Source of the DNA: Kibdelosporangium persicum
GTDB lineage: Bacteria > Actinomycetota > Actinomycetes > Mycobacteriales > Pseudonocardiaceae
DNA: 64,000 nucleotides
Reading direction: 5' to 3'
Assembly: GCF_013280595.1 (NCBI RefSeq)
Contig: NZ_JAAATY010000012.1
Span: 186,001 to 250,000, forward strand
Shown: in pieces, positions 6,599-28,704 of the stretch
Layout: the number at the start of each line of letters is the position of its first letter
Position numbering within the stretch: the stretch's first letter is position 1
Translations under genes and position numbers: made by a program
The notes under the pieces: model-generated
What the model was told of the DNA's origin: nothing
Database searches by the model: none
The model's input: only the letters and a program-made list of their open reading frames with translations

Positions 6599-6876
6599 CG
6601 CCGTCTCCAGCCATCGACCGACGCTCGCCGCCGAGTCAACCCGGCCACCGGCTGGGAAACAAGGAAAACGATCCGACGTGGGCTTACTCCGACAAGTCAC
6701 CGGCACATGACGCGCGGTGAAAGCGGTACTCCGTCAAGTGCCCGCGGTAATCCGCGACAACGCACGAGATCACCATGGCACTACGTCACGTCGGCCGACA
6801 GTGTCGCCGTTCACCGAAGCACAATCGGGGGTGCCGCACTCCCGCGGACAACCGTGCCAAGGCAACGGAGACATTC

Positions 6877-8535
6877 ATGCCCGAATCCCACCGGCCCACC
6901 ATGCTGGCGGTGGACGACGATCCGCACGTGTTGCGGGCCATCCGTCGCGACCTCAGCCGGGCCTATCAGGACCGTTACCGGGTACTCGCCTCCACCTCCG
7001 CGGCCGAAGGGCTGCGGATCCTGGACAAACTGCGTGACCGTGGTGAGGAACCGGCGCTGTTGCTGGTCGACCAGCGGATGCCGGAGATGACCGGGATCCA
7101 GTTCCTCGATCAGTCACTGGAACGTTTTCCGTTGGCACGCAGAGTGTTGCTGACCGCGTACGCGGACACCGCGGTGGCCATCGACGCCATCAACCGTGTC
7201 CGCCTGCACCACTACCTGGTCAAGCCATGGGAGCCGCCGGAGGAGCGGCTCTACCCTGTGGTCGACGACCTGTTATCGGACTGGCAGGCCTCGTATCAGC
7301 CGCCGTACGGCGGAATCCGCATCGCGGGCCACCGCTTCGCACCGTCGACACACCGGGTCCGCGACTTCCTCACGCGCCTGCAACAGCCGTTCCGGTTCAT
7401 GGACGTGGACCGGATCGACCTGCCGGAACTGGACGGCATCAAGCCCGGCGAGCTGCCGGTCGTGCTGATGCCGGACGGCACGATGCTGACGCAACCGACC
7501 TTCGAAGAGCTGGTGGACGCACTCGGCCTGACGATCACGGCCTCCCGCCCGCACTACGACGTCGCGATCGTCGGCGGCGGCCCGACCGGGCTCGCGACCG
7601 CGGTGTACAGCTCCTCCGAAGGACTGTCCACCCTGTTGCTGGACGCGTACGTGCCGGGCGGCCAAGCCGGGACGTCCAGCAGGATCGAGAACTACCTCGG
7701 TTTCCCGGCAGGCGTGAGCGGCGCCGAACTGACCCGCCGTGCGGTGGCCCAGGCTCGCAAGTTCGGCACCGACATCCTCTCCCCTGTCGCCGCGGTGTCC
7801 TTACGACGCGCCGGGCGGGCGCGGATGCTCACGCTGTCCGATGGCCGCGAGGTCAGCGCCGGATGCGTACTGCTGTCAACAGGTCTGTCGTATCGCCGGC
7901 TCGACGCCCACGGCGCGTCCCAGTTCGAAGGCGCCGGGATCTACTACGGCGCGACGGCGGCGGAAACCACGTCCTGCGTGGACCAGCACGTCTGGATCGT
8001 CGGCGGCGCGAACTCGGCTGGACAGGCCGCGCTGTACTTCGCCCAGCACGCCTCCCGCGTGACGATGCTGGTCCGCGCGGACAGCCTGCAACGCAGCATG
8101 TCCCAGTACCTGATCAACGAGATCGACCGCTGTCCGAACATCCGCGTCCGCGTGAACACCCGGCTGGTGGCGGCCGAGGGAACCGACCGCCTGGAGTGCA
8201 TCACGCTGCACAACGTGCTGACTGACCAGTTCACCACGGAACCCGCGGAGTTCCTGTTCACGTTCATCGGCGCGACACCCCGGACACAGTGGCTCGACGG
8301 CGTGGTGATGCGCGACTCCAACGGTTTCCTGCTGACCGGCCCGGACATCCACCCCGGCGGCATGATGCCCGAGGGCTGGGACATCCAGCGCTACCCCTTC
8401 CCGCTGGAGACAAGCGTCCCCGGCGTGTTCGCGGCCGGGGACGCCCGAGCGAACTCCGTCAAACGCATCGCCTCCGGCGTCGGCGAAGGCGCGATGGCCG
8501 CGGCCCTGATCCACCAGTACCGCGCCGAAACCTGA
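6877..8535 (+). CDS. Response-regulator receiver domain fused to a thioredoxin-reductase-like flavoprotein
   Basis: A 552-residue three-part protein. Residues 1-125 are a CheY-like receiver with acidic D13-D15, phospho-acceptor D65 (VDQRMPEMTG), T93 and K116. Residues about 140-215 look like a small thioredoxin/glutaredoxin-fold domain without a CxxC. Residues about 225-552 are a two-dinucleotide-fold reductase (AIVGGGPTGLATAVY for FAD, WIVGGANSAGQAAL for NAD(P)H, and a C-terminal GVFAAGDARANSVKR). The stretch that carries the redox CATC in true thioredoxin reductases reads YYGATAAETTSC, so the cysteine pair is missing. The start is the ATG at 6877 with CGGAG 6 bases upstream. No histidine kinase is nearby. 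Proteins with this architecture are known in actinomycetes; the physiological electron acceptor is not clear. Confidence 0.85.
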   Translation: MPESHRPTMLAVDDDPHVLRAIRRDLSRAYQDRYRVLASTSAAEGLRILDKLRDRGEEPALLLVDQRMPEMTGIQFLDQSLERFPLARRVLLTAYADTAVAIDAINRVRLHHYLVKPWEPPEERLYPVVDDLLSDWQASYQPPYGGIRIAGHRFAPSTHRVRDFLTRLQQPFRFMDVDRIDLPELDGIKPGELPVVLMPDGTMLTQPTFEELVDALGLTITASRPHYDVAIVGGGPTGLATAVYSSSEGLSTLLLDAYVPGGQAGTSSRIENYLGFPAGVSGAELTRRAVAQARKFGTDILSPVAAVSLRRAGRARMLTLSDGREVSAGCVLLSTGLSYRRLDAHGASQFEGAGIYYGATAAETTSCVDQHVWIVGGANSAGQAALYFAQHASRVTMLVRADSLQRSMSQYLINEIDRCPNIRVRVNTRLVAAEGTDRLECITLHNVLTDQFTTEPAEFLFTFIGATPRTQWLDGVVMRDSNGFLLTGPDIHPGGMMPEGWDIQRYPFPLETSVPGVFAAGDARANSVKRIASGVGEGAMAAALIHQYRAET

Positions 8536-11930: not shown

Positions 11931-12830
11931 CTACCGGGCCGTCACCTTCCCCGCGCGCCGGGCCTCGGAGGGGACCGCGCCAAGTCTGTTCTCGGCGACA
12001 GCGAGGCCCAGCAGGACGATGACGGCACCGGCAGCCATGCTCCAGGTGATGGATTCCGAAAGGGTGATCACCCCGATCACCACCGCGGCGACCGGCACCA
12101 GGTAGTTCACCGCGGACGCCGTGGTGGCGCCGAAATCCCGGATCAGCCGGAAGTACAGCACATACCCCGCCCCCGTGGCCACGGCCCCGAGCAGCAGGAT
12201 GCTCACGAGGACCGGCCAGGTGAACGTGGGCTCGCGCCATTCGAACACAGGTGTGACGGCAGCCTGCAGGGCGGCTGCCGCCAACACCTGTGCGGCCGCA
12301 AGGGCGAGGGGAACGATGTCCAGACCGGACAGTACCTTGCAGACGTAGACCGCTTGCGCGGCATAGCATGCGGCCGCACCGAGGACGGCCAGTTGCCCGC
12401 CGAGCGAACCCGGCGCGCTCCCCCACGGCGAGACGACCAGAACCACACCGGCGAACCCGATGAGCAGACCGGTGGTCTTCCGCCAGGTCGCCCGCTCCCC
12501 GGGTAGCGTCGTGGTGGCGAACGCCAAGGTGATCAACGGCATCGCGCCGATGAGCACACCGGCCATTCCCGCGCTCGTGTGCTGCTGGCCCCAAGCCAGG
12601 AGCAGGAACGGTGCCACCAGGCCGAGCACCGCCGCCATGGCGATGTGCCCCCACACTCGGCCGAACGCGGGCAGCCTGATCCCGCGCAGCCGCACGATCG
12701 CCAGCAACACCACGGCACCGAGCACCAGACGTGCCAGCACGAGCTGGCTCGGGGTCAGCCCGGTCAACGAGATGGTGATGAACGTGTGGCTACCGCCCCA
12801 GATCAGCCCGAGCAGCAGGAACAGCACCAT
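11931..12830 (-). CDS. EamA/DMT-family transporter
   Basis: A 299-residue integral membrane protein with ten predicted helices in two EamA repeats. It starts MVLFLLLGLIWGGSHTF (first repeat about 1-130, second about 145-280) and ends in a short basic cytoplasmic tail. Members export amino acids and small metabolites. Its ATG comes one base after the stop of the TrpB-like gene, so the two form a tight pair. An efflux role for an amino acid or for the tryptophan-related product of the cluster fits this context (inference). Confidence 0.85.
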   Translation of the reverse strand: MVLFLLLGLIWGGSHTFITISLTGLTPSQLVLARLVLGAVVLLAIVRLRGIRLPAFGRVWGHIAMAAVLGLVAPFLLLAWGQQHTSAGMAGVLIGAMPLITLAFATTTLPGERATWRKTTGLLIGFAGVVLVVSPWGSAPGSLGGQLAVLGAAACYAAQAVYVCKVLSGLDIVPLALAAAQVLAAAALQAAVTPVFEWREPTFTWPVLVSILLLGAVATGAGYVLYFRLIRDFGATTASAVNYLVPVAAVVIGVITLSESITWSMAAGAVIVLLGLAVAENRLGAVPSEARRAGKVTAR

Positions 12831-12831
12831 G

Positions 12832-14196
12832 TCAGACCGTCGCCGGCTGCGGGATGCTGGCCAGGCCGTTGGCCAGTGCCTCGTCGGTCAGGGTGTCGTC
12901 ACGCAGCCGCCCGGCGAAGTACTGCTCGTACGCCGCCATGTCGAAGTTGCCGTGCCCGGACAGTCCGAAGAGGATCGTCCTGCCGACGCCCTCGTCCCGG
13001 CAGCGCAGGGCTTCGTCGACCGCGGCACGGACGGCGTGCGTCGATTCCGGCGCGGGCACGATGCCTTCCGAGCGAGCGAAGATCACACCGGCCTGGAAGC
13101 ACGCGGTCTGCCGCAACGCGACCGCCTCCATGTATCCGTCCTCAACTGCACGGCTGACCAGAGGCGCGATGTTGTGCGCGCGCAGACCGCCCGCGTGCAC
13201 GGCCGGCGGCACGAACCGGTGGCCGAGCGTGTGCGTCCGGAACAGCGGCGTGAGTTGACGTGTGTCCGCGTAGTCGTAGGCGATCCGGCCCTTGGTGAGC
13301 GTCGGGCACGCCACCGGCTCAGCCGCGATCAGCCGGACGTCCTTGCCGCCGCGCAGCTTCTCCCGCAGGAACGGGAACGACAGTCCGGCCAGGTTGCTGC
13401 CACCGCCCGCGCACCCGATCACGATGTCCGGGTAGTCGTCGGCGAGCGCCATCTGCTGGATGGCCTCCTGGCCGATGACCGTCTGATGTGCACAGACATG
13501 GTTGAGCGAACTGCCGCGGGCGTATCCGCTCTTGCCGTCGGCGAACACCGCCTGCAGGGCTTCGGACTTCGCGACGCCGAGGCTGCCGGGGTGGTCCGGG
13601 TTCTCCGCGAGGACCGCGCGGCCCGCGGCGGTCTCCGTGCTGGGGCTCGGCGTGCAGTTCGTGCCGAACGTCTCCATCAGCGAACGCCGGTACGGCTTCT
13701 GCTGGTAGCTCACCTTGACCATGTAGACCTTGGCGGACATGTCGAACAACGCGGCCGCGAACGCGATCGCGCTGCCCCACTGCCCGGCGCCGGTCTCCAC
13801 GACCAGCCGCTGGCGGCCGGCGAGCTTGTTGTAGTACACCTGCGGCACGGCCGAGTTCGGTTTGAAGCTGCCGGTCGGCGCGACGCCCTCGTACTTGTAG
13901 TAGATCTTCGCCGGGGTGCCCAGCGCCTGCTCCAGCCTGCGTGCCCGGAACATCGGTGTCGGCCGCCACTGCCGGTAGATCTCCCGTACCGGTTCGGGGA
14001 TCGCGAACTCCGCCTCGGTGCTTAACTCCTGGTCGGCTAAGGGTTCGGGCATCGTGCGCGCGAGATCGTCGCGGCCGAGCGGTGTCGCGGTGGCCGGGTC
14101 GAGGATCGGCGCGATCTCCGGCAGGTCCGCGGCCAGGTTGTACCAGGTCCAGGGAATGTCGTCCTCGCCGAGCTGGAACTTGATCTGCTCACCCAT
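12832..14196 (-). CDS. TrpB2-like PLP enzyme (tryptophan synthase beta-like)
   Basis: A 454-residue fold-type II PLP enzyme of the long TrpB2 group, starting MGEQIKFQLGEDDIPW. The substrate region matches (WRPTPMFRARRLEQAL, YYKYEGVAPTGS). The PLP-lysine motif reads GSFKPNSA, whereas tryptophan synthase beta chains have His before the Lys (GSHK). The phosphate-binding loop CAGGGSNLAG and the C-terminal LSGHGNFD are present. TrpB2 enzymes usually make tryptophan from free indole and Ser without TrpA. The window also has a canonical trpB, so this copy may salvage indole or condense a modified indole or a different amino acid. It diverges from the adenylation-enzyme operon and carries an ACTT-N4-type half-conserved site in its upstream region. 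Confidence 0.85.
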   Translation of the reverse strand: MGEQIKFQLGEDDIPWTWYNLAADLPEIAPILDPATATPLGRDDLARTMPEPLADQELSTEAEFAIPEPVREIYRQWRPTPMFRARRLEQALGTPAKIYYKYEGVAPTGSFKPNSAVPQVYYNKLAGRQRLVVETGAGQWGSAIAFAAALFDMSAKVYMVKVSYQQKPYRRSLMETFGTNCTPSPSTETAAGRAVLAENPDHPGSLGVAKSEALQAVFADGKSGYARGSSLNHVCAHQTVIGQEAIQQMALADDYPDIVIGCAGGGSNLAGLSFPFLREKLRGGKDVRLIAAEPVACPTLTKGRIAYDYADTRQLTPLFRTHTLGHRFVPPAVHAGGLRAHNIAPLVSRAVEDGYMEAVALRQTACFQAGVIFARSEGIVPAPESTHAVRAAVDEALRCRDEGVGRTILFGLSGHGNFDMAAYEQYFAGRLRDDTLTDEALANGLASIPQPATV

Positions 14197-14540: not shown

Positions 14541-15998
14541 ATGCCTTCTCCCCAATTCCTGGACCGTTTCGCCACCTGGGTCGCGGACCGCCCGGACACT
14601 CCCGCCATCCGGTGGCGGGAGGCCACCATAACGTATCGCGATCTTGACGCGTTGGCCAATGCCGCCGCTCGGGAACTCGTTTCGGCCGGTCTTCGCGGCG
14701 ACGACCGGGTCGGGGTGTCCGCGGGCAAGTCACCGGAACTGGTGGCCCTGCTGATCGCGTTGTGGCGAGCCGGGCACACGGTCATGTTGCCGTCCCACGA
14801 TCTCGGCAGCGCGGCGCTTCGCATGCTGGCCAAGGCCGCCGGAGTGACCAGGCTCGTCACTCCCAGCCCGGTCCTCAGCGAGACGACCGAGCCGGTGGGG
14901 GTCCATCACGTGCCATCGGCCGGCGACTCGCTGCTGATCCTCACCACCTCCGGATCGACGGGCGTGCCGAAGCTCGTTCCGTTGTCTCCCAAAGGCGTTG
15001 ACAACTTCATGTGCTGGGCGGCCGGCACGTTCGACATCCGGCCCGGCGCACAGGTGCTGTCGTGCGCACCGCTCAACTTCGACCTGTCACTGCTGGACGT
15101 CTGGACCACGCTGGCCAGCGGCGCCACGACGACCCTCGTCGACCCGCGCTTCGCGACCGACGGCAGCTACCTCGCGCACACCCTCGACACCGAGAAGATC
15201 ACCATGGTGCAGGCCGTGCCGATGGTCTACCGGCTGCTGGCGGACCTCAGCATCGGCCCGATCCGGTTTCCCAGCGTGCGGCACCTGGTGCTGACCGGGG
15301 ACGCGACACCGCCGAAACTCCTGCCCGAGTTGGTCCGGATGTTCCCCAGAGCCCGTCGTTACAACGTGTACGGCTGTACCGAGACCAACGACTCGACCAT
15401 GTACGAGATCATCGACACGACCGAACGGAAGCTGCCGATCGGTTCCCCGTTGCCCGGCGTGCACACGCAGGTGATCAGCTGTGACGGTGACGTCGTCGAA
15501 GGATCGGGTTCCGGCGAGCTCTGGGTTTCCACGCCGTTCCAGGCCAACGGGTATCTCGATCCGATCGCCACCCGCGAACGGTTCGTGCGTGACCCCGCCG
15601 ACGGCAACACAGTGTTCTACCGGACGGGCGATGTGGTGTACCGCGACGACGATGGCGTGTTCACGCTCGAGGGCCGGACCGACTTCCACGTGAAGGTCCG
15701 TGGAGCCCGTACCAACATGGCCGAGGTCGAACACGTCATCCAGCGCCACCCGGACGTACGGGAGGTCGCGGTGGTGGCCGTGCCGGACGAACTGGCCGGC
15801 AACGTGCTGCACGCGGTGGTGTGCCGCCGCGAAGGCTCCTCGCTCAACAGCCTCAAGCTGCGCGAGGTCTGCAGGGAAGGCCTTGCCAGAACGGCGATTC
15901 CGACCACGATCACGATCGTCGAGGAGGCGCTGCCCAAGACGTCGACCGGCAAGGTCGACCGGAAAGCCGTCCTGAGCCGTTACACAGAAAGGATCTGA
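14541..15998 (+). CDS. Stand-alone amino-acid adenylation enzyme (AMP-dependent synthetase)
   Basis: A 485-residue free adenylation domain of NRPS type. Core motifs: ILTTSGSTGVPK (A3), FDLSLLDVW (A4), YNVYGCTETND (A5), YRTGD (A7), GRTDFHVKVRGARTN (A8) and PKTSTGKVDRK with the catalytic Lys (A10). The A4 Asp that binds the alpha-amino group is kept, so an alpha-amino acid is the likely substrate. By manual alignment the pocket begins D-L-L, as in prolyl-activating enzymes of pyrrole pathways, but the later positions do not clearly agree, so the substrate is open. The ATG at 14541 has GGAG 7 bases upstream. The PCP gene begins 2 bases after its stop; it opens a five-gene run PCP, EctC-like, dehydrogenase, transglutaminase-like. 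Confidence 0.9.
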   Translation: MPSPQFLDRFATWVADRPDTPAIRWREATITYRDLDALANAAARELVSAGLRGDDRVGVSAGKSPELVALLIALWRAGHTVMLPSHDLGSAALRMLAKAAGVTRLVTPSPVLSETTEPVGVHHVPSAGDSLLILTTSGSTGVPKLVPLSPKGVDNFMCWAAGTFDIRPGAQVLSCAPLNFDLSLLDVWTTLASGATTTLVDPRFATDGSYLAHTLDTEKITMVQAVPMVYRLLADLSIGPIRFPSVRHLVLTGDATPPKLLPELVRMFPRARRYNVYGCTETNDSTMYEIIDTTERKLPIGSPLPGVHTQVISCDGDVVEGSGSGELWVSTPFQANGYLDPIATRERFVRDPADGNTVFYRTGDVVYRDDDGVFTLEGRTDFHVKVRGARTNMAEVEHVIQRHPDVREVAVVAVPDELAGNVLHAVVCRREGSSLNSLKLREVCREGLARTAIPTTITIVEEALPKTSTGKVDRKAVLSRYTERI

Positions 15999-15999
15999 C

Positions 16000-16254
16000 A
16001 TGCCCCGCTCCGACGAGATCAAAGCATGGATCGTCCGCAACTTCGCCCCCGACGTCGACCCGGCTGACCTGCCGGACGACTACGACCTGCTCGCCAGCGG
16101 GCTGATCAGCAGCCTGAGCCTGGTCCGTCTGGTCAGCGGCCTGGCCGCGGAGTTCGATGTGGACATCGACGCCGCCGACCTCCGCCCCGAGTACTTCCGT
16201 TCGGTCACCTCGATCACCGAGTTCGTCGGCGCCGCGCTCCAGCCGCAGGCCTGA
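16000..16254 (+). CDS. Free peptidyl/acyl carrier protein
   Basis: An 84-residue carrier protein. Helix II begins at the phosphopantetheine site LLASGLISSLSLVRLVSGL. Ser38 is the modified residue by alignment, and the nearly invariant Asp just before it is Ser37 here. The rest (DDYDLL, TSITEFVGAAL) is typical of discrete carrier proteins beside free A-domains. It starts one base after the stop of the adenylation gene, which should be its loading enzyme. The tethered amino acid is then available to the downstream dehydrogenase, cupin and transglutaminase-like protein. No phosphopantetheinyl transferase gene is in the window. Confidence 0.85.
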   Translation: MPRSDEIKAWIVRNFAPDVDPADLPDDYDLLASGLISSLSLVRLVSGLAAEFDVDIDAADLRPEYFRSVTSITEFVGAALQPQA

Positions 16255-16321
16255 TCTGACTCTCCTTTCCCGTTTTCCGAATTCCTCAGTGGATATCGCA
16301 CGCCCAAAAGGGAGTACCAGC

Positions 16322-16696
16322 ATGTTCATTCGCAGCAGAGAAACCGTCAACGTCGTCGACTGGGGCAACGGCGACAGCTACCGCCTGCTCGTCGCCGCCG
16401 ACGGACTGGGATTCACCGTGTGCCACACCGTGGTCCGTGCCGGAACCAGCTCGAAACTCCAGTACAGCAAGCACTTAGAGGCCTGTTACTGCATTTCCGG
16501 GAAGGGCGAGGTGGTCACCGGCGACGGCGTCACGCACACGATCGAACCGGGGATCTTATACGCGCTCGACCAGCACGACCCGCACACCCTGATCGCCGCG
16601 CCCTCCGAGGACATGCACCTGATCAGCGTGTTCAACCCGCCGCTGACCGGCCACGAACGGCACTCGCTCTGCCCGGACGGCTATTCCTGCTACTGA
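16322..16696 (+). CDS. Ectoine synthase-like cupin (EctC family), without ectA/ectB
   Basis: A 124-residue cupin that aligns end to end with ectoine synthase. The three iron ligands known for EctC are at the expected places: Glu53 (HLEACYCISG), Tyr80 (ILYALDQHD) and His88 (DPHTLIA). The C-terminal VFNPPLTGHE block is present. EctC closes N-gamma-acetyl-2,4-diaminobutyrate to a cyclic amidine with loss of water. No acetyltransferase (EctA) or aminotransferase (EctB) is nearby, and the gene sits between a carrier protein and a carrier-type dehydrogenase. It may therefore build a tetrahydropyrimidine or related ring in a natural product (inference). The ATG at 16322 has GGGAG upstream. Solitary EctC proteins are known, but I do not know one inside such a module. 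Confidence 0.85.
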   Translation: MFIRSRETVNVVDWGNGDSYRLLVAADGLGFTVCHTVVRAGTSSKLQYSKHLEACYCISGKGEVVTGDGVTHTIEPGILYALDQHDPHTLIAAPSEDMHLISVFNPPLTGHERHSLCPDGYSCY

Positions 16697-16763
16697 CCAC
16701 ACCCCAGAGCTGGGAGGTGGTTGACCGGCAGTCGCCACCTCCCAGCCGCGAAAGGACTCAGGA

Positions 16764-17918
16764 ATGCCCGCACCCGCCGCGGAATGGTACGCACGGATGT
16801 CCGAGCTCGGGGACAAGCTCGGAACCACGGTGACCGAAGAGGACCGGACCGCCGAGTTCTCCTTCGGGAAATGGAACCTGATCGCCGAGACCGGACTGTT
16901 CGGCCTGCCGTTCGCCCAGGACCGCAGGCGGTCGGACGAGACGCTGCCGCAGATCACCGCGGCGCTGGAAGGTCTCGGCCACGGCAGCGACGACGCCAGC
17001 CTGGGGTTCAGCGTGGCCACCCAGCTGGCCAGCTGCGCGGTCCCGCTGGCACGGTTCGGCTCGCCCGCCCTGCGGGAACGCTATGAGCACGCGGTCAGCG
17101 CCGGACGGCTCATCGGCGCACACGCCATCACCGAACCGGAGGCAGGGTCGGACGCGCTGGCGATGTCCACCTGTGCCGCGTTCACCGGGGACGACTATGT
17201 CCTCAACGGACACAAAGCCTTCATCTCCAACGGCCCGATCGCCGACCTGATCGTGGTCTACGCACTGACCGGCGTGCCCGGCACGTTCACCGGCCTGACC
17301 GCGTTCATCGTCCCCCGGGACACCGACGGGCTGACCCTGAGCGAACCGCTGGACAAGATGGGCCTGCGGTGTTCGCCACTGGGGACCGCGGACCTGGTCG
17401 GCGTCCGCGTTCCGGCCGATCACGTGGTCGGTCAGGTCGGCGGCGGTTCCTGGCTGCTGTCGCACGTCATGGCGCGCGAGATCCTGTTCATCGCCGCGGG
17501 CCAGGTCGGTCAGATGCAGCGGCGGCTGGACGCCTGCACCGGGCGTGCCCGTGGCCGGGTCCAGTTCGGACAGCCGATCGGCGCGTTCCAGGCCGTCTCG
17601 CACAAGATCGTCGACATGCGGATCAGCGTGGAGACCGCCCGTTACTGGTTGTACGACACGACAACCAGGATGGTCGCCGGTGAGGACGTCACCGCACGGG
17701 TGGCGATGACCAAGATCGTGGTCAGTGAGGCGAACGTGGCCACCGCCCGGACCGCCGTGCAGGTGTTCGGTGGCGCGGGTTACCTGTCCGAGACGGGCAT
17801 CGAACGCGGCCTGCGGGACGCCATCGCCGGGACCATCTACTCCGGCACGTCGGAGATCCAGCGCAACAAGGTCGCCGCGGTCATGGGACTCGGCGAGAAC
17901 GGAGGGCAGTCGTGGTGA
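16764..17918 (+). CDS. Acyl-CoA-dehydrogenase-like flavoprotein, probably acting on aminoacyl-PCP
   Basis: A 384-residue acyl-CoA dehydrogenase-fold flavoenzyme. It has HAITEPEAGSDALAM (FAD/substrate loop), GHKAFISNGPIAD, RVQFGQPIGAFQAVSHKI, QVFGGAGYLSE and the C-terminal IYSGTSEIQRNKVA. Beside a free A-domain and PCP this is the arrangement that makes pyrrole-2-carboxyl-PCP from prolyl-PCP, so alpha,beta-oxidation of a carrier-bound amino acid is the best guess. An acyl-CoA substrate remains possible. Its stop overlaps the transglutaminase-like start, so the two proteins are made together. Confidence 0.85.
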   Translation: MPAPAAEWYARMSELGDKLGTTVTEEDRTAEFSFGKWNLIAETGLFGLPFAQDRRRSDETLPQITAALEGLGHGSDDASLGFSVATQLASCAVPLARFGSPALRERYEHAVSAGRLIGAHAITEPEAGSDALAMSTCAAFTGDDYVLNGHKAFISNGPIADLIVVYALTGVPGTFTGLTAFIVPRDTDGLTLSEPLDKMGLRCSPLGTADLVGVRVPADHVVGQVGGGSWLLSHVMAREILFIAAGQVGQMQRRLDACTGRARGRVQFGQPIGAFQAVSHKIVDMRISVETARYWLYDTTTRMVAGEDVTARVAMTKIVVSEANVATARTAVQVFGGAGYLSETGIERGLRDAIAGTIYSGTSEIQRNKVAAVMGLGENGGQSW

Positions 17919-18559
17919 TCGGGCCGACCGAGTTCCTGGACTACGAACACGAACGAGTACGTGCCTTCGTCGGCAAGGCGATCGGCGATGCCACGACACC
18001 CAAAGATTGTGCTGTACGGCTGTTCTACGCCGTCCGCGACGGCCTCGACTACGAGGTGAGCGGTCAGGATCTGTCCAGGGAAGGCCTACGCGCGAGTTCG
18101 ATCGTCGCTCGTGGACAGGGATTCTGCGTGCACAAGTCCATTCTCTACGCCGCCGCGGTGCGCTCGGTCGGCATCCCGAGCCGGCTCGTGGTCAGTGAAG
18201 TCCGCAACCACCTGGCGTCCCCCGCTCTCAAGGCACTGGTCGGCGGCGACACCTTCGTGCACTGGCTCACCGCGATCCGGCTCGACGGACGCTGGCTGCA
18301 CGTCACACCGGTGTTCAACAAGGTGCTGTGCCGGCTGTACCGGATGGAGCCGTTGGAGTTCGACGGCGAGTCGGACGCGCGGCTGCACCCGTTCACCGAC
18401 GGCGAGCGAATGGAGTTCCTCACCGAGCACGGTCGCTTTGACGACGTGGACTATGACAGACTGATGGGGCTCATGCGGACCCGCCACCCGGGTATGTTCG
18501 CCAACGGCACGGTGGTGCCGGACTCCGGGTCACTCGCGGCGCAGGCCACCTCGGTGTGA
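17912..18559 (+). CDS. Transglutaminase-like protein, candidate amide-forming acyltransferase
   Basis: A 215-residue papain-fold transglutaminase-like protein. The nucleophile Cys72 is in ARGQGFCVHKS, followed by the usual small-residue helix and IPSRLVV strand, and His117 is in TFVHWLTAI. The position of the third triad residue (GRWLHVTPVFN) carries Thr132 where the family has Asp. Transglutaminase-like enzymes such as AdmF in andrimid synthesis move acyl groups from a carrier protein to an amine. The context here, with a PCP four genes upstream and a decarboxylase fusion directly downstream, fits that role (inference). It starts at the GTG at 17912 (GGAGGG upstream) and overlaps the dehydrogenase stop by 7 bases. 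Proteolysis or a non-catalytic role is the alternative. Confidence 0.78.
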   Translation: MVIGPTEFLDYEHERVRAFVGKAIGDATTPKDCAVRLFYAVRDGLDYEVSGQDLSREGLRASSIVARGQGFCVHKSILYAAAVRSVGIPSRLVVSEVRNHLASPALKALVGGDTFVHWLTAIRLDGRWLHVTPVFNKVLCRLYRMEPLEFDGESDARLHPFTDGERMEFLTEHGRFDDVDYDRLMGLMRTRHPGMFANGTVVPDSGSLAAQATSV

Positions 18560-18725: not shown

Positions 18726-21593
18726 ATGTCCGGAAACACCCAACCGAAAGCGGTCATCGTCGGTGCGGGTCCAGTCGCGTGCTTGGTCGCGATCGAACTG
18801 CGCAGGCGCGCTTTCCAGGTCGAGCTCTACGAGCGGGGAACCGATTTCCGCCGTCTGCGCGGTGGCAAGGGCCACTCCTTCAACCTCACGCTGACCCGGC
18901 GCGGTTTGAAGTCGCTGCAGCCGCACCTCATCGATGTCCTGCACCAGAACGGTGTTCCGCTGCCGCAACGGGTCATCCACCACGCCGACGGTTCGTTGTC
19001 CTACCAGCGCTACGGCACCGAAGAAGACCACTACCTGTTGTCCATCCCGCGTGGACTGTTGCACCACACGCTGATGGACGAGGCCGAGAAGGCGGGCGCG
19101 GAGATCTTCTTCGAGCACGAGTGCATCCGCGCCGATCCCGCCGCGGCCACGGCCACGTTCGCCACCAGTTCCTACGGTATCCGGGAGGCCACGGGCGACA
19201 TCCTGATCGGCTGCGACGGCGCGAACAGCATCGTGCGGCAGGAGATGTCCCGCCGGGGCGCCCGGATGAGCATCTCCCAGGAGTACATCACCGACGGGTT
19301 CGCCGAGCTGAAGATGCCGCCGTCGGCGGGCGGCGGCTTCGCGCTGCTGGAGGCGCTGAGCGACCCGCACCGTCCGGACAGCGAGAACCACGGCCTGCAC
19401 GTCTGGCCGCGCGGCGACTTCGTCCTGCTGTCCCAGCCCAATGTGGACCGAAGCTACACCACCGGGCTGTTCATGCCGCTCACCTCCGCCGACCCCGAGC
19501 AGCCGACCTGGGACAAGCTGAAGACCGAACAGGACGTGGAAGCCCTGTTCTCCCGGTACTTCCCGGACATCGTGCCGTTCCTGCCGCAGCTGACCAAGGA
19601 CATCCTGGCGGCGCCGCCGTCCTGGCTCAAGACCATCAAGTGCTTCCCGTACCACCACGAGCGCACGGTGCTCATCGGCGACTCGGCGCACACCATGGTC
19701 CCGTTCTACGGCCAGGGCATCAACTGCAGCTTCGAGGATGTCCGGACGTTCTTCGAGATCCTGGACCGGCGCCTGGCCACCGAGGAGCTGCGGGCGGGCA
19801 TCCGCGCGGCGCTGGCCGACTTCACCGAGGCCCGCAAGGCCCCGGGGGACGCCATCGCCGACCTGTCGCTGGCGATGCGGGCCGAGCTGAAGTCGCACAC
19901 CGACGACACCAAGTTCCACGCCCGCAACAAGCTGGAGAAGCAGCTGCACCTGCGCCACCCCGGGGACTTCGTCCCGCTCTACCACATGGTCGCGTTCACC
20001 AACATCCCGTACAACGAGGTGATCAAGCGGCACCACGAGCAGAAGGCCATTCTGGACGAGCTGTGCGACCGGTTCGACATCCACACCGAGGCGCCCAAGA
20101 TCCTCGACTCGTTCCCGGCGAGCCGCGACGGCGTCCGGACCGGTCAGTCGCTGAGCTTCGACCTGGCTCCGGAGCAGCAGCGCTACCTGCTCGACACGGT
20201 TGTCAACCGGTTGCTGCGGTACCAGGAGGACCTGGCCAACGGCAAGTATCCGGCGTCGTACCTGCACCACCCGGACGGCGCGCACGACCCGGACGGCGCC
20301 CTGATCGGCGCGGAACTGCGCGAGGACGACGTCCCGCAGCACGGCACCAATCTCGAGGTGCTGCTGACCGAGATCTTCGACAAGGCCGTGCCCAACGGGA
20401 TGATCCACCCACACCCCGGGTTCATGGCCCACGTCCCGTCGGGCGGGCTGTTCCAGGCCGCGGTCGGTGAGTTCATCTCGCGCACGCTCAACCGGTTCCC
20501 GGGCGCGTGGGCGGCCTCCCCCGGGTTCACGCAGATCGAGTCGAACGTGATCCGGTGGTTCTGCGCCATGCTCGGCTACGGCACGGGATCCTTCGGATAC
20601 CTCACCACGGGCGGGTCGATCGCCAACTTCATGGCATTGCGGTGCGCGCTGGCCCGGGCCGGTGATGTCGCACAGCAGCGCGGCACGGTCTACGTGTCCT
20701 CCCAAGGACATTTCTCCGTGGCCAAGGCCGCACGGATGGCCGGCATCCCCGGTGACCGCGTCCGGAGCATCGGCGTGAACCGCGACTACACAATGGACCT
20801 GGACGAGCTGCGGCGGGCCGTGAACCGCGACCTCGACCGCGGTTACATCCCGACCTGTGTGGTCGGCACCGCGGGCACGACGAGCACCGGCGCGGTCGAC
20901 GATCTGGCCCAGCTGGCCGACTTCTGCGCGTACTACGGCATCTGGCTGCACGCCGACGCCTGCTTCGGCGGGTTCTTCCGGCTCACCGCCAGGGGCAAGG
21001 TCCTGCTGGCCGGCAGTGAGCTGGCCGACTCGATCGCGGTCGACGCGCACAAGTCGCTGTTCCTGCCGCACGGCATCTCCGGGCTGCTGGTCAAGGACCA
21101 GTCGCAGCTGAAGGTGGCGTTCGAGATCGGTGGCGCGGCCTACGTGCCGGAACTGTCCACTGACGACGCGTACGTCGACTTCTGCAACTACGGCCCGGAA
21201 CTCACCCGGGAGGCCCGTGGGCTGACCGCGTGGCTGCCGATCAAGCTGCACGGCATCAAGGCGTTCGAACGGTGCCTGGACGAGAAGCTCGACCTGGCCG
21301 ACGACCTGGCCGACCGGCTCAGGCACTTCAACGACATCACGCTCGTCGAGCGCGGCAAGCCGCACCTGCCGACGGTCGGGTTCGGTGTCCGGTCGGACAA
21401 CCTGGCCGACCAGGCACGCCGCAACGAGCGGCTGGCCGAGCTGATCAACTCGCGCGGCAACGTCTACCTGTCCACCACCACTCTGCCTGAGGAGGGCGTC
21501 GTCGTCCGGTCGTGCATCCTGCACCACCAGACCGACAAGATCGTCATCGACCAGCTCCTGGAAGACGTCCAGTGGTCCCTCGACAAGCTCTGA
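18726..21593 (+). CDS. KMO-like FAD monooxygenase fused to an aromatic-L-amino-acid decarboxylase
   Basis: A 955-residue two-enzyme fusion. Residues about 5-455 are a class A flavin monooxygenase most like kynurenine 3-monooxygenase, with FAD loop VIVGAGPVACLVAIEL and the KMO-style block LIGDSAHTMVPFYGQG (Asp319). Residues about 470-955 are a group II PLP decarboxylase: the substrate loop HPGFMAHVPSGG, the ring-stacking His in QGHFSVAKAARMAGI, Asp in HADACFGG and the PLP Lys776 in DAHKSLFLP. Both halves look complete and full length. A hydroxylated aromatic amino acid made by the first half could pass directly to the second, giving for example a hydroxytryptamine or 3-hydroxykynuramine type amine. 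Which substrate is used is unknown. The ATG at 18726 has GGGAGGAGG upstream; a 166-base gap separates it from the transglutaminase-like gene, so it may have its own promoter. Confidence 0.92.
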   Translation: MSGNTQPKAVIVGAGPVACLVAIELRRRAFQVELYERGTDFRRLRGGKGHSFNLTLTRRGLKSLQPHLIDVLHQNGVPLPQRVIHHADGSLSYQRYGTEEDHYLLSIPRGLLHHTLMDEAEKAGAEIFFEHECIRADPAAATATFATSSYGIREATGDILIGCDGANSIVRQEMSRRGARMSISQEYITDGFAELKMPPSAGGGFALLEALSDPHRPDSENHGLHVWPRGDFVLLSQPNVDRSYTTGLFMPLTSADPEQPTWDKLKTEQDVEALFSRYFPDIVPFLPQLTKDILAAPPSWLKTIKCFPYHHERTVLIGDSAHTMVPFYGQGINCSFEDVRTFFEILDRRLATEELRAGIRAALADFTEARKAPGDAIADLSLAMRAELKSHTDDTKFHARNKLEKQLHLRHPGDFVPLYHMVAFTNIPYNEVIKRHHEQKAILDELCDRFDIHTEAPKILDSFPASRDGVRTGQSLSFDLAPEQQRYLLDTVVNRLLRYQEDLANGKYPASYLHHPDGAHDPDGALIGAELREDDVPQHGTNLEVLLTEIFDKAVPNGMIHPHPGFMAHVPSGGLFQAAVGEFISRTLNRFPGAWAASPGFTQIESNVIRWFCAMLGYGTGSFGYLTTGGSIANFMALRCALARAGDVAQQRGTVYVSSQGHFSVAKAARMAGIPGDRVRSIGVNRDYTMDLDELRRAVNRDLDRGYIPTCVVGTAGTTSTGAVDDLAQLADFCAYYGIWLHADACFGGFFRLTARGKVLLAGSELADSIAVDAHKSLFLPHGISGLLVKDQSQLKVAFEIGGAAYVPELSTDDAYVDFCNYGPELTREARGLTAWLPIKLHGIKAFERCLDEKLDLADDLADRLRHFNDITLVERGKPHLPTVGFGVRSDNLADQARRNERLAELINSRGNVYLSTTTLPEEGVVVRSCILHHQTDKIVIDQLLEDVQWSLDKL

Positions 21594-22968: not shown

Positions 22969-24362
22969 ATGCGCGAATGTCCCGAGTACCCACTCGTGCC
23001 CGTTTACGAGGAATTCCTTGCCGACACGATGACGCCGGTGACGGTGTTCGAGCGGCTCTGCGGACCCGACGAGCCCGGCTTCCTGCTGGAAAGCGTGCCG
23101 GTGACCGGGGACGTCGGGCGGTACTCGTACATCGGGCATCGTCCGGTCCCGCTGACCCTGCCGGCCGGCGACCCGCTCACCACGCTGCGATCGCTCGCGG
23201 CGCAGCGGATCGCCCCGGTCCCGGGACTGCCGCCGTTCCTCGGTGGCGCGGTCGGGTACCTCGGCTGGGAGACCGCTCGGCACTTCGAGCGGCTGCCCGA
23301 GGCCGAGGGCCCGGCGCCCGGCCTGCCGGAGGCGGCGTTCCTCAGCGTCGAGGACCTCGCCGTCTTCGACCACGCCACCCGCAGGCTGATCCTGCTGACC
23401 GTGCACCGGCCGGCCCAGGAGTCCTATCAGGACGCCCTGGACCGGGTGGCGCGGATGCGGGAGCGGCTGGCGAATCCGGTGCCGCAGCGTCCGGTCGTGT
23501 CACTCTGCCCCGCGCAGGGCGACCTGCTGGACGGCTGGCGGTCGAACGTCACGCAGGAGGAGTTCGAAGCACGGGTCGAGCGGGCCCGTGAGTACATCGC
23601 CGCGGGCGACGCTTTCCAAATCGTGTTGTCGCAACGGTTCACCAAGCAGCTGACCGCGGATCCGCTGGACCTGTACCGGCACCTGCGGGCGGTCAACCCG
23701 TCGCCGTACATGTACCACCTGAGCCTCGGCGGCGGGCGGCACATCGTCGGCTGCTCGCCCGAACTGCTGGTGAAGGCGACCGGCAAGCGCATCGAGACCC
23801 GGCCGTTGGCCGGGACCCGGGCGCGCGGCAAGGACATCGACGCCGACCTGGCGCTGGAGCGCGAGCTGCTGGCCGACGAGAAGGAGTGCGCGGAGCACGT
23901 CATGCTCGTCGACCTGGGCAGGCACGACCTCGGCCGGGTCGCGGCGCCGGGCAGCGTGCGGGTGGAGAAGCTGATGGAGATCGAGCGCTTCTCGCACGTG
24001 ATGCACATTTCGTCCACTGTGGCCGGTGAGCTGGCCGGCAACGCGGACGGGCTGGACGCGTTGCGCTCCACGTTCCCCGCGGGCACGCTCAGCGGCGCAC
24101 CCAAGATCAGGGCGATGGAGATCATCGCCGAACTCGAGCCGGAACGACGGGGCGTGTACGGCGGCGCCCTCGGTTTCGTCGGCTACGACGGCGCGGCCGA
24201 TCTGGCGATCGCGTTGCGCACCATGGTCGTCGCCGACGGCAAGGTGCACGTCCAGTCCGGTGCGGGTGTGGTCGCCGACTCCGACGCGACCGCCGAGTAC
24301 CAGGAGACGCTGCACAAGGCCCGGGCCATGTTCACCGCCGTCCGGCAGGCGGAGGCGGTCCG

Positions 24363-24366
<4 letters not shown>
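22969..24366 (+). CDS. trpE: Anthranilate synthase component I
   Basis: A 465-residue TrpE that turns chorismate into anthranilate with ammonia from TrpG. The N-terminal FLLESVPVTGDVGRYSY holds the LLES element that binds tryptophan in feedback-sensitive enzymes, so allosteric control is probably kept. The C-terminal chorismate-binding domain has GDAFQIVLSQRF, SPELLVK, RPLAGTRARG and FPAGTLSGAPKIRAME. The usual DLGRND reads DLGRHD here. Start ATG at 22969, 32 bases after the P450. A short palindrome (CGATCC-GA-GGATCG) lies in this gap, but there is no leader peptide with Trp codons, so no classical attenuator. First of six trp genes joined by overlaps. Confidence 0.95.
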
Positions 24367-24926
<560 letters not shown>

Positions 24927-24927
24927 G

Positions 24928-25950
24928 ATGATTGACCTGATCAAGCGGGTGTCCCGAGGGGAGACCCTGAGCGAGTCGGACGCCGCGCTGGCGATGCGCA
25001 CGATCATGTGCGGCGCCGCGGGGCCCGCGCGGATCGCCGGGTTCGCGATGGCGCTGACGATGCGCGGTGAGACCGTCGACGAGATCGTGGGCATGGCCAA
25101 GGCGGCCCGCCAGCTGGCCAGGCCGGTGCCGTTCGGCTCCGACGTGCTGGACACCTGCGGGACCGGCGGCGACGGCCTGAACACGTTCAACATCTCCACC
25201 GCGTCCGCCATTGTCGCGGCGGCCTGTGGCGTCAAGGTGGCCAAGCACGGCAACCGCAGCGCCTCGTCCGGCTGCGGCAGCGCCGACGTGCTGGAGGAGC
25301 TCGGCGTGCGGATCGACCTCACGCCTGAGGACGCGGCCCGGTGCCTCGCCGAGACGGGCATCACGTTCCTGTTCGCGCCGGTGTTCCACCCCGCGTTCCG
25401 GCACGCCTCCGGGCCGCGCAAGGAGCTGGGCATCCGCACGGTGTTCAACCTGCTGGGCCCGTTGTGCAACCCCGCTCGTGCCCAGTACCAGGCGCTCGGC
25501 GTGCCCAACGCCGACCTGGTCGCTCCGATGGCCGAGGTGCTCGCCCGGCTGGGCGTCACCCGGGCACTGGTGTTCCACTCCGAGGACGGCCTGGACGAGC
25601 TGAGCATCGGCGCACCGTCCACAGTGGTCGAAGTGATCGACGGCGAGCGCCGGGCGTACCGGTTCGACCCGGCCGGCCTCGGCCTGCCGAAGGCCTCGGT
25701 CGCCGACCTCGCCGGGGGTGACCGTGCGGTGAACGCGGACATCATCCGCCGGATCTTCGCCGGTGAGCCGGGTCCGGGCCGCGACATCGTGCTGCTCAAC
25801 GCCGCGGCGGCGTTGCGGATCACCGGGCACGCCAAGGACTGGCACGACGGTCTCGGGCAGGCCGCCCGTGCGATCGACAGCGGTGCCGTGACGGCGTTGC
25901 TCGACAAGTGGGTCGCGGTGTCGCAGAACCGAGTGGCGGTGCCGTCATGA
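24928..25950 (+). CDS. trpD: Anthranilate phosphoribosyltransferase
   Basis: A 340-residue TrpD that joins anthranilate to PRPP. The PRPP/anthranilate loop is DTCGTGGDGLNTFNIST, followed by VAKHGNRSASSGCGSADVL, the hinge motif FAPVFHPAFRHA and the acidic metal loop HSEDGLDELS. Length and motifs match free-standing TrpD. The ATG at 24928 follows the trpG stop after one base. Its stop overlaps trpC. No phosphoribosylanthranilate isomerase (TrpF) gene is present; actinomycetes use the dual-function PriA of the histidine pathway for that step, so the absence is expected. Confidence 0.95.
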   Translation: MIDLIKRVSRGETLSESDAALAMRTIMCGAAGPARIAGFAMALTMRGETVDEIVGMAKAARQLARPVPFGSDVLDTCGTGGDGLNTFNISTASAIVAAACGVKVAKHGNRSASSGCGSADVLEELGVRIDLTPEDAARCLAETGITFLFAPVFHPAFRHASGPRKELGIRTVFNLLGPLCNPARAQYQALGVPNADLVAPMAEVLARLGVTRALVFHSEDGLDELSIGAPSTVVEVIDGERRAYRFDPAGLGLPKASVADLAGGDRAVNADIIRRIFAGEPGPGRDIVLLNAAAALRITGHAKDWHDGLGQAARAIDSGAVTALLDKWVAVSQNRVAVPS

Positions 25951-26750
25951 CCTTGTCCGACAACGGCCTCCGGCCGACGATGCTGACCAGGCTGATCCAG
26001 ACCGCCAACGAGCAGACCGCACGGCGCAGGAGCGTGCGTCCACTGTCCGAAGTGGCCGAACTGGCCGCGAAGGCGGAGCCGCCACGGGACTTCGTCGCCG
26101 CGCTGAGCGAACCGGGGCTGAGCGTCATCGCCGAGATGAAGCCACGCAGCCCGTCGAAAGGGCCGCTGACCGACGACTACCGTCCGGCTGAGCGGGCCCG
26201 CGCCTACCGCAGGGGCGGTGCGGCCGCGATCTCGGTGCTGACCCACGAGGACGGCTTCGGCGGCAGCCCCGAGCACCTGCCCGTCGCCCGCGCCGAGGGC
26301 GGCATCCCGGTGCTGCGCAAGGACTTCATCGACGACGAATACCAGATCCTCGAAGCCCGGGCGCTGGGCGCGGACGCGCTGCTGCTGATCGTCGCCTCGC
26401 TGACGCCGCACCGGCTGGCCGAACTGCTCGGCTACACCAGAGGCCTCGGCATGGAGGCGCTGGTCGAGGTGCACGACGCCGACGAGGTCGACATCGCGCT
26501 CGACGCGGGCGCGACCGTGATCGGCGTGAACCACCGGGATCTGCGGGACTTCCGGATCGACATGACACTCACCGCGCGGCTGCGCGACCGGGTCGGTTCC
26601 GGGCGCCTGCTCGTCGGTGAGAGCGGGATCAACACCAGACAGGACGCGGCCGCGCTGTACGAGGCGGGCGCCGCGGCGGTACTCGTCGGCGAGGTCCTGA
26701 TGAAGGCCGCCGACCCCGAGGGGAAAGTCAGGGAGCTGAGGCAGGCATGA
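25947..26750 (+). CDS. trpC: Indole-3-glycerol phosphate synthase
   Basis: A 267-residue (beta/alpha)8 enzyme that closes the indole ring. The early [13 protein letters not shown] holds the conserved Glu-Met-Lys and SPSKG signature, with [12 protein letters not shown] (catalytic Lys), [13 protein letters not shown] and [10 protein letters not shown] following. The ATG at 25947 was chosen because it overlaps the trpD stop (ATGA); the frame is open further upstream only inside trpD. The next gene, trpB, again overlaps by 4 bases. The N-terminal ~45 residues are the usual helical extension of the family. Confidence 0.95.
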
Positions 26751-27949
26751 GCGACCGCACCAGGTTCGGCCGTTTCGGCGGGCGTTACGTCCCGGAGACG
26801 CTGATGGCCGCACTCGACGAACTGCAGACCGTGTGGCTGGATCTGCGCGAGGACGAGGGCTTCCTCGGTGAGCTGCGGGCCCGGCAGGCGACGTTCATCG
26901 GCAGGCCGACGCCGCTGTACCACGCCGAGCGGCTGACCGAGCACTTCGGTGGCGCGACCATCCACTTCAAGCGTGAGGACCTCTGTCACACCGGCGCGCA
27001 CAAGCTGAACAACGCGCTCGGCCAGGCGGTGCTGGCTCGCCGGATGGGCAAGAAGCGGATCATCGCCGAGACCGGCGCCGGTCAGCACGGCGTGGCCACC
27101 GCGACCGTATGTGCCCGGTTCGGGCTGCCGTGCACCGTCTACATGGGCGCGGAGGACATGCGCCGCCAGGAGGTCAACGTCCGGCGGATGCGGATGCTCG
27201 GCGCCGAGGTCCGGCCGGTGACCAGCGGCACGGCCACGCTGAAGGACGCCACGTCCGAGGCGATCCGTGACTGGGTCACCAACGTCCGCGACACGCACTA
27301 CATCATCGGCTCGGTCGTCGGACCGGCTCCGTACCCGGAGATGGTCCGCGAGTTGCAGCGCGTGATCGGTGACGAGGCCCGCGCGCAGTATCTGGCCGCG
27401 GAGAACACGTTGCCGGACACGGTGGTCGCGTGTGTCGGCGGCGGGTCGAACTCGATCGGCATGTTCGCCGGGTTCGTCGACGACCCCGGCGTGGAACTGG
27501 TCGGTGTCGAGGCGGGCGGGCACGGCGTCGCGAGCGGGCAGCACGCCGCGGCGGCGGTCGGCGGCCAGGCCGGCGTCCTGCACGGCAGCTTCAGCTACAT
27601 CCTGCAGGACCGGCACGGCCAGGTGCTGCCGACGCACTCGATCGCCGCGGGTCTGGACTACCCCGGCGTCGGCCCGGAGCACGCGATGCTGGCCGAGCTG
27701 GGCCGGGCGTCCTATGTGGCCGTCAACGACGACGAGGCGGTCGCCGCGTTCAAGCTGTGCACCCGCCTCGAAGGCATCATGCCCGCGCTGGAGACGTCGC
27801 ACGCCCTGCACCACGTCGGCGAGCTCGCCCGTGAGATGGGCCCGGGAGCACGCATCCTGCTGTGCTTCTCCGGCCGCGGCGACAAGGACATGCACACCAT
27901 CGAGTCGGTGTCCCCCACCGACATGCCGGTGATCGGAGACCCGGAATGA
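26747..27949 (+). CDS. trpB: Tryptophan synthase beta chain
   Basis: A 400-residue canonical TrpB1. The substrate/PLP motif is [13 protein letters not shown] with the Schiff-base Lys and preceding His. [14 protein letters not shown], the phosphate loop [10 protein letters not shown] and the C-terminal CFSGRGDKD are present. It condenses indole, channelled from TrpA, with serine. Start and stop overlap trpC and trpA by 4 bases each. This normal copy contrasts with the TrpB2-like enzyme at 12832-14196, which has Phe at the position of that His. Confidence 0.96.
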
Positions 27950-28704
27950 CTCTGGCTGCAAGGTTGAAGCAAGACGGTCTGTCCCTCATCCCCTACCTGA
28001 TGGCCGGCCACCCGGACCTGGACACCACCCGCGAGGTCGGCCGCAAGCTGGTCAACACCGGGATCGCCGCGATCGAGCTGGGCATCCCGTACAGCGACCC
28101 GCTGGCCGACGGACCGGTGATCCAGCGCGCGGGGCAGCGTGCCCTCGACGCGGGCACCACGACCGAGGGCTGCCTGGAGGTCGCCGCGGACATCGCGGCC
28201 GAGCAGGCGGCACCCGTGATCCTGATGACGTACGTCAACCCGGTCCTGGCCTACGGCCCGGAGCGGTTCGCCCGTGACGCCGCCGAGGCGGGCGTCGCCG
28301 GGGTGATCATCCCGGACGTGCCGGTCGAGGAGTCCGCCGACATCGCGCGGACGATCACGGCCGCCGGCCTGGACACCGTGTTCCTGGTGGCTCCCACGAG
28401 CCCGGACGAGCGGATCGTGGCCGCGGCCACCGCGTCGACCGGTTTTGTGTACTGCGTGACGGTCACCGGGATCACCGGCAGCCGTTCGGCACTGCATCCC
28501 GACGTGCACGGACTGCTCGCCAAGGTCCGGTCGCACACCGACCTTCCCGTCGCAGCGGGCTTCGGCATCTCCAGTGCCGAGCAGGTCTCGCTGCTGCGGG
28601 AGCACGCCGACGCCGCGATCGTCGGCAGCGCGATCGTCAACGAACTGGACGCCGGACGGGATCCCGGCCCGCTTGTGAGGGAGCTGCTGTCAGCATGCAA
28701 ATGA
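27946..28704 (+). CDS. trpA: Tryptophan synthase alpha chain
   Basis: A 252-residue TIM-barrel TrpA that cleaves indole-3-glycerol phosphate. The catalytic Glu is in [16 protein letters not shown], and the catalytic Asp lies in the same block (DPLADGP). [11 protein letters not shown] binds phosphate. The ATG at 27946 overlaps the trpB stop. It ends 10 bases inside the DAHP synthase gene, so the operon continues without a break. Slightly shorter than the common ~265 residues but with all core strands. Confidence 0.95.

Follow-up and report, generated by a model that had tools for sequence, protein, structure and literature searches.

A carrier-protein cassette with an ectoine-synthase-like cupin in Kibdelosporangium persicum, a candidate route from glutamine to an aminopyrrole beside tryptophan-type genes

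What is an ectoine-synthase-like protein doing between a carrier protein and a flavoprotein dehydrogenase? The question is raised by a locus of Kibdelosporangium persicum, located in a stretch of 64,000 nucleotides that we call the window (positions 186001-250000 of contig C12 of this genome, G000). According to the open reading frames (ORFs) and profile scans, five adjacent genes lie there on the plus strand, free of internal stops, as the original prediction had described them. A free-standing adenylation (A) domain (14541-15998; PF00501, 197 bits; PF13193, 62 bits) is followed after 1 base by a peptidyl or acyl carrier protein (PCP/ACP; 16000-16254), whose Ser lies in the aligned motif ISSLSL and whose PF00550 score of 22.5 bits is barely above the cut-off of 20.8. 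Next come an EctC-like cupin starting with the ATG at 16322 (16322-16696; PF06339, 117 bits, cut-off 27; NF009806, 138.5 bits, cut-off 128, scanned from 16325), an acyl-CoA-dehydrogenase-like (ACAD) flavoprotein (16764-17918; PF00441, 123 bits) and, overlapping the latter by 7 bases, a transglutaminase-like (TGL) protein (17912-18559; PF01841, 53.5 bits). The five-gene observation is confirmed. We consider it rather probable that this cassette is a self-contained pathway from glutamine to 2-aminopyrrole-5-carboxylate, and that the ring is then most likely taken by a TrpB-like enzyme encoded next to it. This reading draws on gene content, conservation, residues and co-occurrence, from which every reaction named below is deduced.

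The EctC-like protein retains the three iron ligands Glu57, Tyr84 and His92 (Paenibacillus lautus numbering), in agreement with the original prediction, and so do all the other cassette proteins in the alignment (24 of 24 rows, the window included). It shares with canonical EctC the Pfam family, these ligands and many active-site residues, but differs from it in that Trp21 is shifted to a WGNG motif, that position 38 is Cys, Thr or Ala in the cassettes, and that EctA and EctB do not accompany it. The predicted absence of EctA and EctB was borne out, as tblastn with the EctA-, EctB- and EctD-like proteins of the same genome found nothing in the window at E ≤ 1e-3. The genome has a canonical EctC as well (PF06339, 183.7 bits versus 116.5 bits for the window copy), and its ectABCD set is found on contig C9, away from the window (gene names assigned by eye). 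Therefore, ectoine is probably made elsewhere in this genome. The position of the EctC-like protein was examined in a tree of 53 rows with midpoint root, which contained two canonical rows and left out 39 of the 66 orphan EctC rows and the short cassette row L008. The canonical pair stood apart (100/97), and the 27 orphan rows formed one group (100/95) nested among the cassette rows. The loss of Asn38 was considered as proof of carrier-bound cyclisation and rejected, for Cys is found there in 66 of 66 orphan EctC rows and His in the canonical EctC of the genome; since this canonical protein also lacks Asn38, the residue is not diagnostic. A second type of EctC association was seen in six loci (L066, L077, L080, L081, L083 and L112), where a different A domain (26-31% identity to that of the window) is encoded immediately after an orphan EctC. 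Beyond this pair, L080 and L112 have an ACAD-like protein and a major facilitator superfamily (MFS) transporter, and L066 has an MFS transporter (names by eye).

Which product would such a set of enzymes give? Glutamine minus H2O and minus H2 corresponds to 2-aminopyrrole-5-carboxylic acid, which matches one cupin and one ACAD. In the proposed route, the EctC-like protein, as a candidate glutamine cyclase, would join the alpha-amine of L-glutamine to the side-chain amide and expel water. The resulting 5-amino-3,4-dihydropyrrole-2-carboxylate (ADPC) would arise either free or on the carrier, and the A domain would load the unit on the PCP. The ACAD, a putative alpha,beta-desaturase acting on the carrier, would then take one hydrogen pair from C5H8N2O2. 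This would yield the aromatic 2-aminopyrrole-5-carboxyl unit (C5H6N2O2 as the acid), and the TGL would release it, probably as a hydrolase. The TrpB-like enzyme would most likely couple the released ring to the serine-derived aminoacrylate, giving a pyrrole amino acid. A fusion of a kynurenine-3-monooxygenase (KMO)-type flavoprotein with a decarboxylase and a cytochrome P450 may take part in later tailoring, as may true tryptophan supplied by the trp genes; all of these are described below.

By analogy, this chemistry is not wholly new, because the same route has been proposed for showdomycin. The passages of a review on this compound (PMC8724604) describe L-glutamine as being cyclised by SdmE, activated by SdmC, loaded on SdmD, oxidised, hydrolysed and C-glycosylated by SdmA, and call the pathway incompletely understood. 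The module of Streptomyces showdoensis (SdmC/SdmD/SdmE) and that of the window share, as far as described there, an A domain and a PCP that are both free-standing, a glutamine cyclase or a candidate for it, oxidation and release to the pyrrole acid, and the gene set of such a module (A domain, PCP, cyclase candidate, dehydrogenase and release enzyme) is found all together in the window. They differ in that the window has the TrpB-like gene, the KMO-decarboxylase fusion and trp genes in place of the PsuG-type C-glycosidase, for which tblastn with the PsuG proteins of L042 and L067 gave no match in the window at E ≤ 0.01. We take SdmE to be EctC-like, a point on which the review passages are silent, and Ren et al. 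are said to have named the pyrrole acid of showdomycin, in 2021, 2-amino-1H-pyrrole-5-carboxylic acid. For the cyclisation itself, EctC of Halomonas elongata is described in the relevant parts of two papers (PMC5924519, PMC6344544) as forming the amidine ring of ADPC from glutamine in a side reaction. Given the showdomycin route (PMC8724604) and this side reaction (PMC5924519), as these passages present them, the original prediction of a new use of EctC chemistry is not supported. Its order of events, with oxidation and then cyclisation on the PCP, also disagrees with the review, which in the part concerned places the cyclisation of free glutamine ahead of loading (PMC8724604).

Whether the five-gene order is conserved in other genomes had been set beforehand as the test of the original prediction, and it was examined from two sides. 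In an EctC-seeded scan of genome contigs, in which the best 80 of 117 relatives were compared, an ACAD was found beside the EctC-like gene in 15; all 15 had A and PCP, and 14 had TGL, the exception (L060) stopping at the contig end. When 397 genomes of the order were searched with TGL, 30 matches were obtained at E ≤ 1e-10. The ten with at least 49% identity, own genome included, had cassette genes in all ten cases and the EctC-like gene in nine; in G264 and G047, TGL is approximately 28 and 42 kb away from EctC. The EctC-seeded and TGL-seeded loci, five of 92 plasmid records matching TGL and further stretches together gave 31 cassette loci, from actinobacteria and alpha-, beta- and gammaproteobacteria. 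Among these, 15 were found via EctC itself, and L034/L117 and L035/L037 are near-duplicates. The order A-PCP-EctC-ACAD-TGL is strictly kept on one strand in 19 of the 31 loci, and an EctC-like gene is present in 30. The arrangement thus recurs beyond chance, and the outcome that would have refuted the original prediction, a lack of conserved order, was not observed. The exceptions are an inverted A domain (L063, L064 and L115), an insertion of TrpD-TrpA (L114), rearrangements (L116, L137 and L138), the lack of EctC in L140, a TGL that is non-adjacent (L193 and L195) or was not found (L167), and the contig end that cuts L060.

The surroundings of the cassette are of four types, to which only L060 could not be assigned. 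Type 1 (eight loci: L034, L117, L039, L041, L113, L135, L136 and L139) has MarR, a DsbA-like protein, two SMR transporters, a deaminase and an Amdase-family protein, where the families were scanned in L113 and the other loci were assigned by similarity to it. Actinobacteria share this compact cluster with Vibrio, Alteromonas and Leisingera. Type 2 (four loci: L042, L067, L137 and L138) encodes, as in showdomycin, a protein of the PsuG/IndA family (PF04227 by scan in L042, L067 and L137; L138 assigned by similarity), and L067 also has a HAD phosphatase. Type 3 (12 loci including the window and L033) has the TrpB-like gene. Type 4 (six loci: L114, L116, L140, L167, L193 and L195) has TrpD-, TrpC- and TrpA-like genes in all six and a TrpF-like gene in five, and L140 also has a TrpB-like gene. 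One type-3 locus, L040, encodes a pterin-binding (dihydropteroate-synthase-like) protein at 4819-5658.

Do these different contexts receive the same unit? The predicted specificity code of the A domain is DLLQVTVDSK in the window, and the pattern DLLQ-[VLIM]-T-[VIL]-DSK was found in 30 of the 31 cassettes (20 of 21 and another 10 of 10), with all four PsuG-type loci conforming. One code in 30 of 31, with the PsuG loci among them, therefore points to one common substrate, and most cassettes probably make the same unit. Scattered clusters of actinobacteria and three proteobacterial groups would thus be tied to one portable building block with one A code, and several bacterial groups appear to feed this aminopyrrole block into quite different pathways. 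The role of EctC proteins outside ectoine clusters is called not clear in the passages of a 2018 review that treat them (PMC5924519), and a possible function for such proteins is suggested here.

The remaining two enzymes were compared with known relatives. The best solved relative of the ACAD is the prolyl-ACP dehydrogenase 4irn (241 bits), and Glu239, which aligns with the Glu of the prolyl-carrier dehydrogenase, is present in 28 of 28 cassette rows. The ACAD thus shares the fold family and the Glu at the catalytic position with the prolyl-carrier-protein dehydrogenases (PigA, RedW and 4irn), but its scores are well under the NCBIfam equivalog cut-offs (316 versus 500 bits for PigA and 307 versus 650 bits for RedW), and one desaturation would suffice here. 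In TGL, Cys72, His117 and Asn136 are each present in 27 of 27 cassette rows, and the position where we presume the Asp of the transglutaminase triad to lie is Thr, or Ser/Ala in a few rows. (The ACAD and TGL alignments leave out the second copies of the window or L033, namely L002, L003, L120, L121 and L132-L134.) TGL had no relative in the PDB by sequence at E ≤ 0.01. The fold group of its AlphaFold model (mean pLDDT 88) is that of transglutaminase and arylamine-N-acyltransferase, in which geldanamycin amide synthase ShGdmF is listed. The neighbours are transferases and hydrolases alike, with TM-scores of at most 0.49 by query length, and assigning the function from the fold was dropped. TGL is also kept in the PsuG-type cassettes, where the free acid is wanted by the showdomycin route, so that hydrolysis is no less likely a mode of release than transfer to an amine. 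The mechanism of the original prediction is therefore retained in part: the gene content is consistent with carrier chemistry, oxidation and EctC-type closure to an amidine-type ring, but the movement of the acyl group onto an amine is not supported. Distant relatives of TGL (39-44%) in L013 and L017-L021 adjoin a P450 and an A domain (25-28%), and no EctC-like or ACAD match was seen within these 3.6-kb loci.

We then asked where the ring would go. Divergent from the cassette lies the gene of a TrpB-like pyridoxal phosphate (PLP) enzyme (12832-14196, minus strand), which belongs to the same subfamily as the type-3 copies and exceeds the NCBIfam cut-off of NF009057 (654.6 versus 366 bits). In a control using the 397 genomes of the order, 75 matched this protein at E ≤ 1e-100; only G000, G132 and G192 did so at 66% identity or above, and all three of these copies sit at cassettes, the next best being at most 62%. 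Of 18 further genomes or records, ten had a match at E ≤ 1e-60, and in every one of these ten the top match (66-91%) is the copy at the cassette. Second copies in these genomes showed 50-55% identity, and that of the own genome 48%. Genomes with a type 1 or type 2 cassette gave no TrpB-like match at E ≤ 1e-60 (0 of 6). The TrpB-like gene of L035 is followed by one for an ATP-grasp protein (12641-13900) whose C-terminal domain is of the L-amino-acid-ligase type, as if the TrpB-like enzyme made an amino acid.

A different set of tryptophan-type partners is found in the type-4 loci. Their TrpD, TrpC and TrpA show 29-35% identity to those of the window. In type-4 TrpD, the PRPP-side motif GTGG is kept in six of six, and K[TS]G[SA] stands in place of KHGNR in all six. 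KHGNR is present in the window TrpD and in 10 of 11 other distinct TrpD sequences (12 rows, L119 and L165 being one gene), the eleventh having KHGGR. Thus, judging from these motifs, type-4 TrpD appears to have lost the anthranilate-site residues. In type-4 TrpC, the catalytic motifs retain Glu, Lys, Lys and Glu, ASG[IL] replaces ESGI in all six proteins, and the NN motif is SN in L193; the Cys and Asp of TrpF are kept in five of five, and the Glu and Asp of TrpA in the five loci having that stretch. A search of the type-4 stretches with the TrpE and TrpG proteins of the window found nothing at E ≤ 0.1. Type 4 therefore shares with the tryptophan pathway homologues of TrpD, TrpF, TrpC, TrpA and TrpB with most catalytic motifs, but differs from it in having no TrpE/TrpG match at this threshold and in the replacement of KHGNR and ESGI. 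In a phylum sample, type-4 TrpD had no match at E ≤ 1e-40 (0 of 396), an uninformative result because the sample is without a known positive. These loci are possibly a parallel tryptophan pathway that runs on an aminopyrrole. A wider proposal, plausible but somewhat on the doubtful side, is that the aminopyrrole carboxylate is a stand-in for anthranilate and indole, taken either by the TrpB-like enzyme alone (window and type 3) or by paralogous TrpD-TrpF-TrpC-TrpA(-TrpB) without TrpE/TrpG (type 4), which would constitute a second tryptophan-like pathway to pyrrole or pyrrolo[2,3-b]pyrrole tryptophan mimics. If so, the window would make a tryptophan mimic beside a full supply of true tryptophan. 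Should the aminopyrrole be the substrate of the Trp-like partners, the tryptophan pathway would be re-run on another ring, a source of tryptophan mimics and new antibiotics. Literature searches found no paper in which ectoine synthase is joined to an adenylation domain, a carrier protein and a transglutaminase, none joining anthelvencin with ectoine, and, for tryptophan synthase or TrpB-like with aminopyrrole, showdomycin or pyrrolopyrrole, nothing relevant by title. On the basis of these searches, what looks new is the plug-in use of the cassette beside Trp-type genes.

Several points weigh against the route from glutamine to an aminopyrrole and on to the TrpB-like enzyme. The TrpB-like gene of the window is on the strand opposite to the cassette. 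When 11 cassette-linked copies were compared with six paralogues, just one column was fixed in both groups and yet different; because of this single column, residue signs of a new substrate were rejected and no substrate change is visible in the TrpB-like protein. L140 combines a TrpB-like gene with a cassette that has no EctC-like gene there. The A code deviates in L116 (DLLHLAIDTK), the sole such case, and the codes were read from aligned cassette A domains, not from a curated code table. The likeness to showdomycin is by the description in the review, not by sdm gene sequence. The glutamine-to-ADPC reaction of EctC is described in the passages on it as very inefficient, reversible and largely on the glutamine side (PMC5924519); carrier loading and oxidation would pull this equilibrium forward. 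The same source reports, in the part on orphan proteins, that an orphan EctC of P. syringae yielded ectoine in an H. elongata ectC mutant, and its authors lean to the view that orphan EctC are competent ectoine synthases (PMC5924519). This protein itself is outside our tree, which places the orphan kind near the cassette type.

The last result agrees with the cupin being a normal ectoine synthase that has strayed into the cluster, as does its passing of the Pfam and NCBIfam ectoine-synthase cut-offs. However, the ectABCD set elsewhere in the genome, the lack of EctA/EctB matches in the window, the place of the protein in the tree among cassette and orphan EctC and away from the canonical pair, and its tight linkage to A-PCP-ACAD-TGL make this explanation very improbable. 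More can be said for a module that turns proline into a pyrrole-2-carboxyl unit, with the EctC-like protein as an extra of minor role: the ACAD is closest to prolyl-carrier dehydrogenases, the A code begins with D-L-L as in proline-type free A domains, and the proline ligase 6o6e is eighth among the PDB matches of the cassette A profile. Against it are the presence of the EctC-like gene in 30 of 31 loci and in nine of the ten genomes found by TGL rather than EctC, the Q, T and DS at code positions 278, 301 and 330-331, which are unlike the proline code, and the ACAD scores, far short of the PigA and RedW cut-offs, so we hold a proline module to be a slim prospect.

The original prediction leads to another alternative, in which cyclisation and oxidation of the unit take place on the PCP and TGL then acylates an amine made by the KMO-decarboxylase fusion. 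The product would be the aminopyrrole carboxamide formed with a (hydroxy)tryptamine. The fusion is indeed the next gene after TGL, a complete trp set is downstream, and the TGL model would fit, as its fold group includes acyltransferases of the arylamine-N-acyltransferase kind. But TGL is conserved in PsuG-type and other cassettes, and a full-length match of the fusion was found only in the genomes of the window and of L033 (Actinosynnema ALI-1.44), of 27 genomes or records searched; TGL thus cannot generally depend on the fusion, and we regard this transfer as unlikely. The glutamine-to-aminopyrrole route with release by TGL is therefore preferred.

The cassette is part of a longer gene array. 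Behind the TrpB-like gene lies an EamA-family transporter (11931-12830, minus strand; PF00892, 120.6 bits), a possible exporter; an EamA protein also comes after the TrpB-like gene in L143. Downstream of TGL, on the plus strand, are the fusion of the KMO-type flavoprotein with an aromatic-amino-acid-type decarboxylase (PLP) (18726-21593; 6lkd, 252 bits), a cytochrome P450 (21608-22936, start codon by our own count; PF00067, 177.6 bits), trpE, trpG, trpD, trpC, trpB and trpA of the ordinary type (22969-28704; ORFs, named by eye, and trpD, trpC and trpA also by annotated homologues) and a class II DAHP synthase (28695-30125; PF01474, 669 bits; TIGR01358, 736 bits). Matches of Trp_dioxygenase were found on contig C1, beyond the window, and the KMO domain may serve a kynurenine route. 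The window trpD keeps KHGNR and HPAFR and is thus ordinary, and trpE and trpG are present; therefore, the trp operon should make true tryptophan. A second trpD with 50% identity is on contig C18. Further along are three paralogous ACAD-fold proteins (30256-31455, 33748-34992 and 36731-37966), all matching Acyl-CoA_dh_2, the first of which scores with the SfnB and DszC monooxygenases, under their cut-offs. The three share one best match in the Actinosynnema stretch, a sign that they may have arisen by duplication in the window. The cluster also encodes an O-methyltransferase and a BTAD-type regulator. Proteins from approximately 9144 to 47314 match 60 kb of a contig of Actinosynnema sp. ALI-1.44 (L132-L134) at 53-95%, and window proteins outside this span had no match in that 60 kb; the cluster is therefore probably larger than the five-gene finding. 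Upstream in the window, at 6775-8535, a response-regulator domain is fused to a thioredoxin-reductase-like flavoprotein (by eye).

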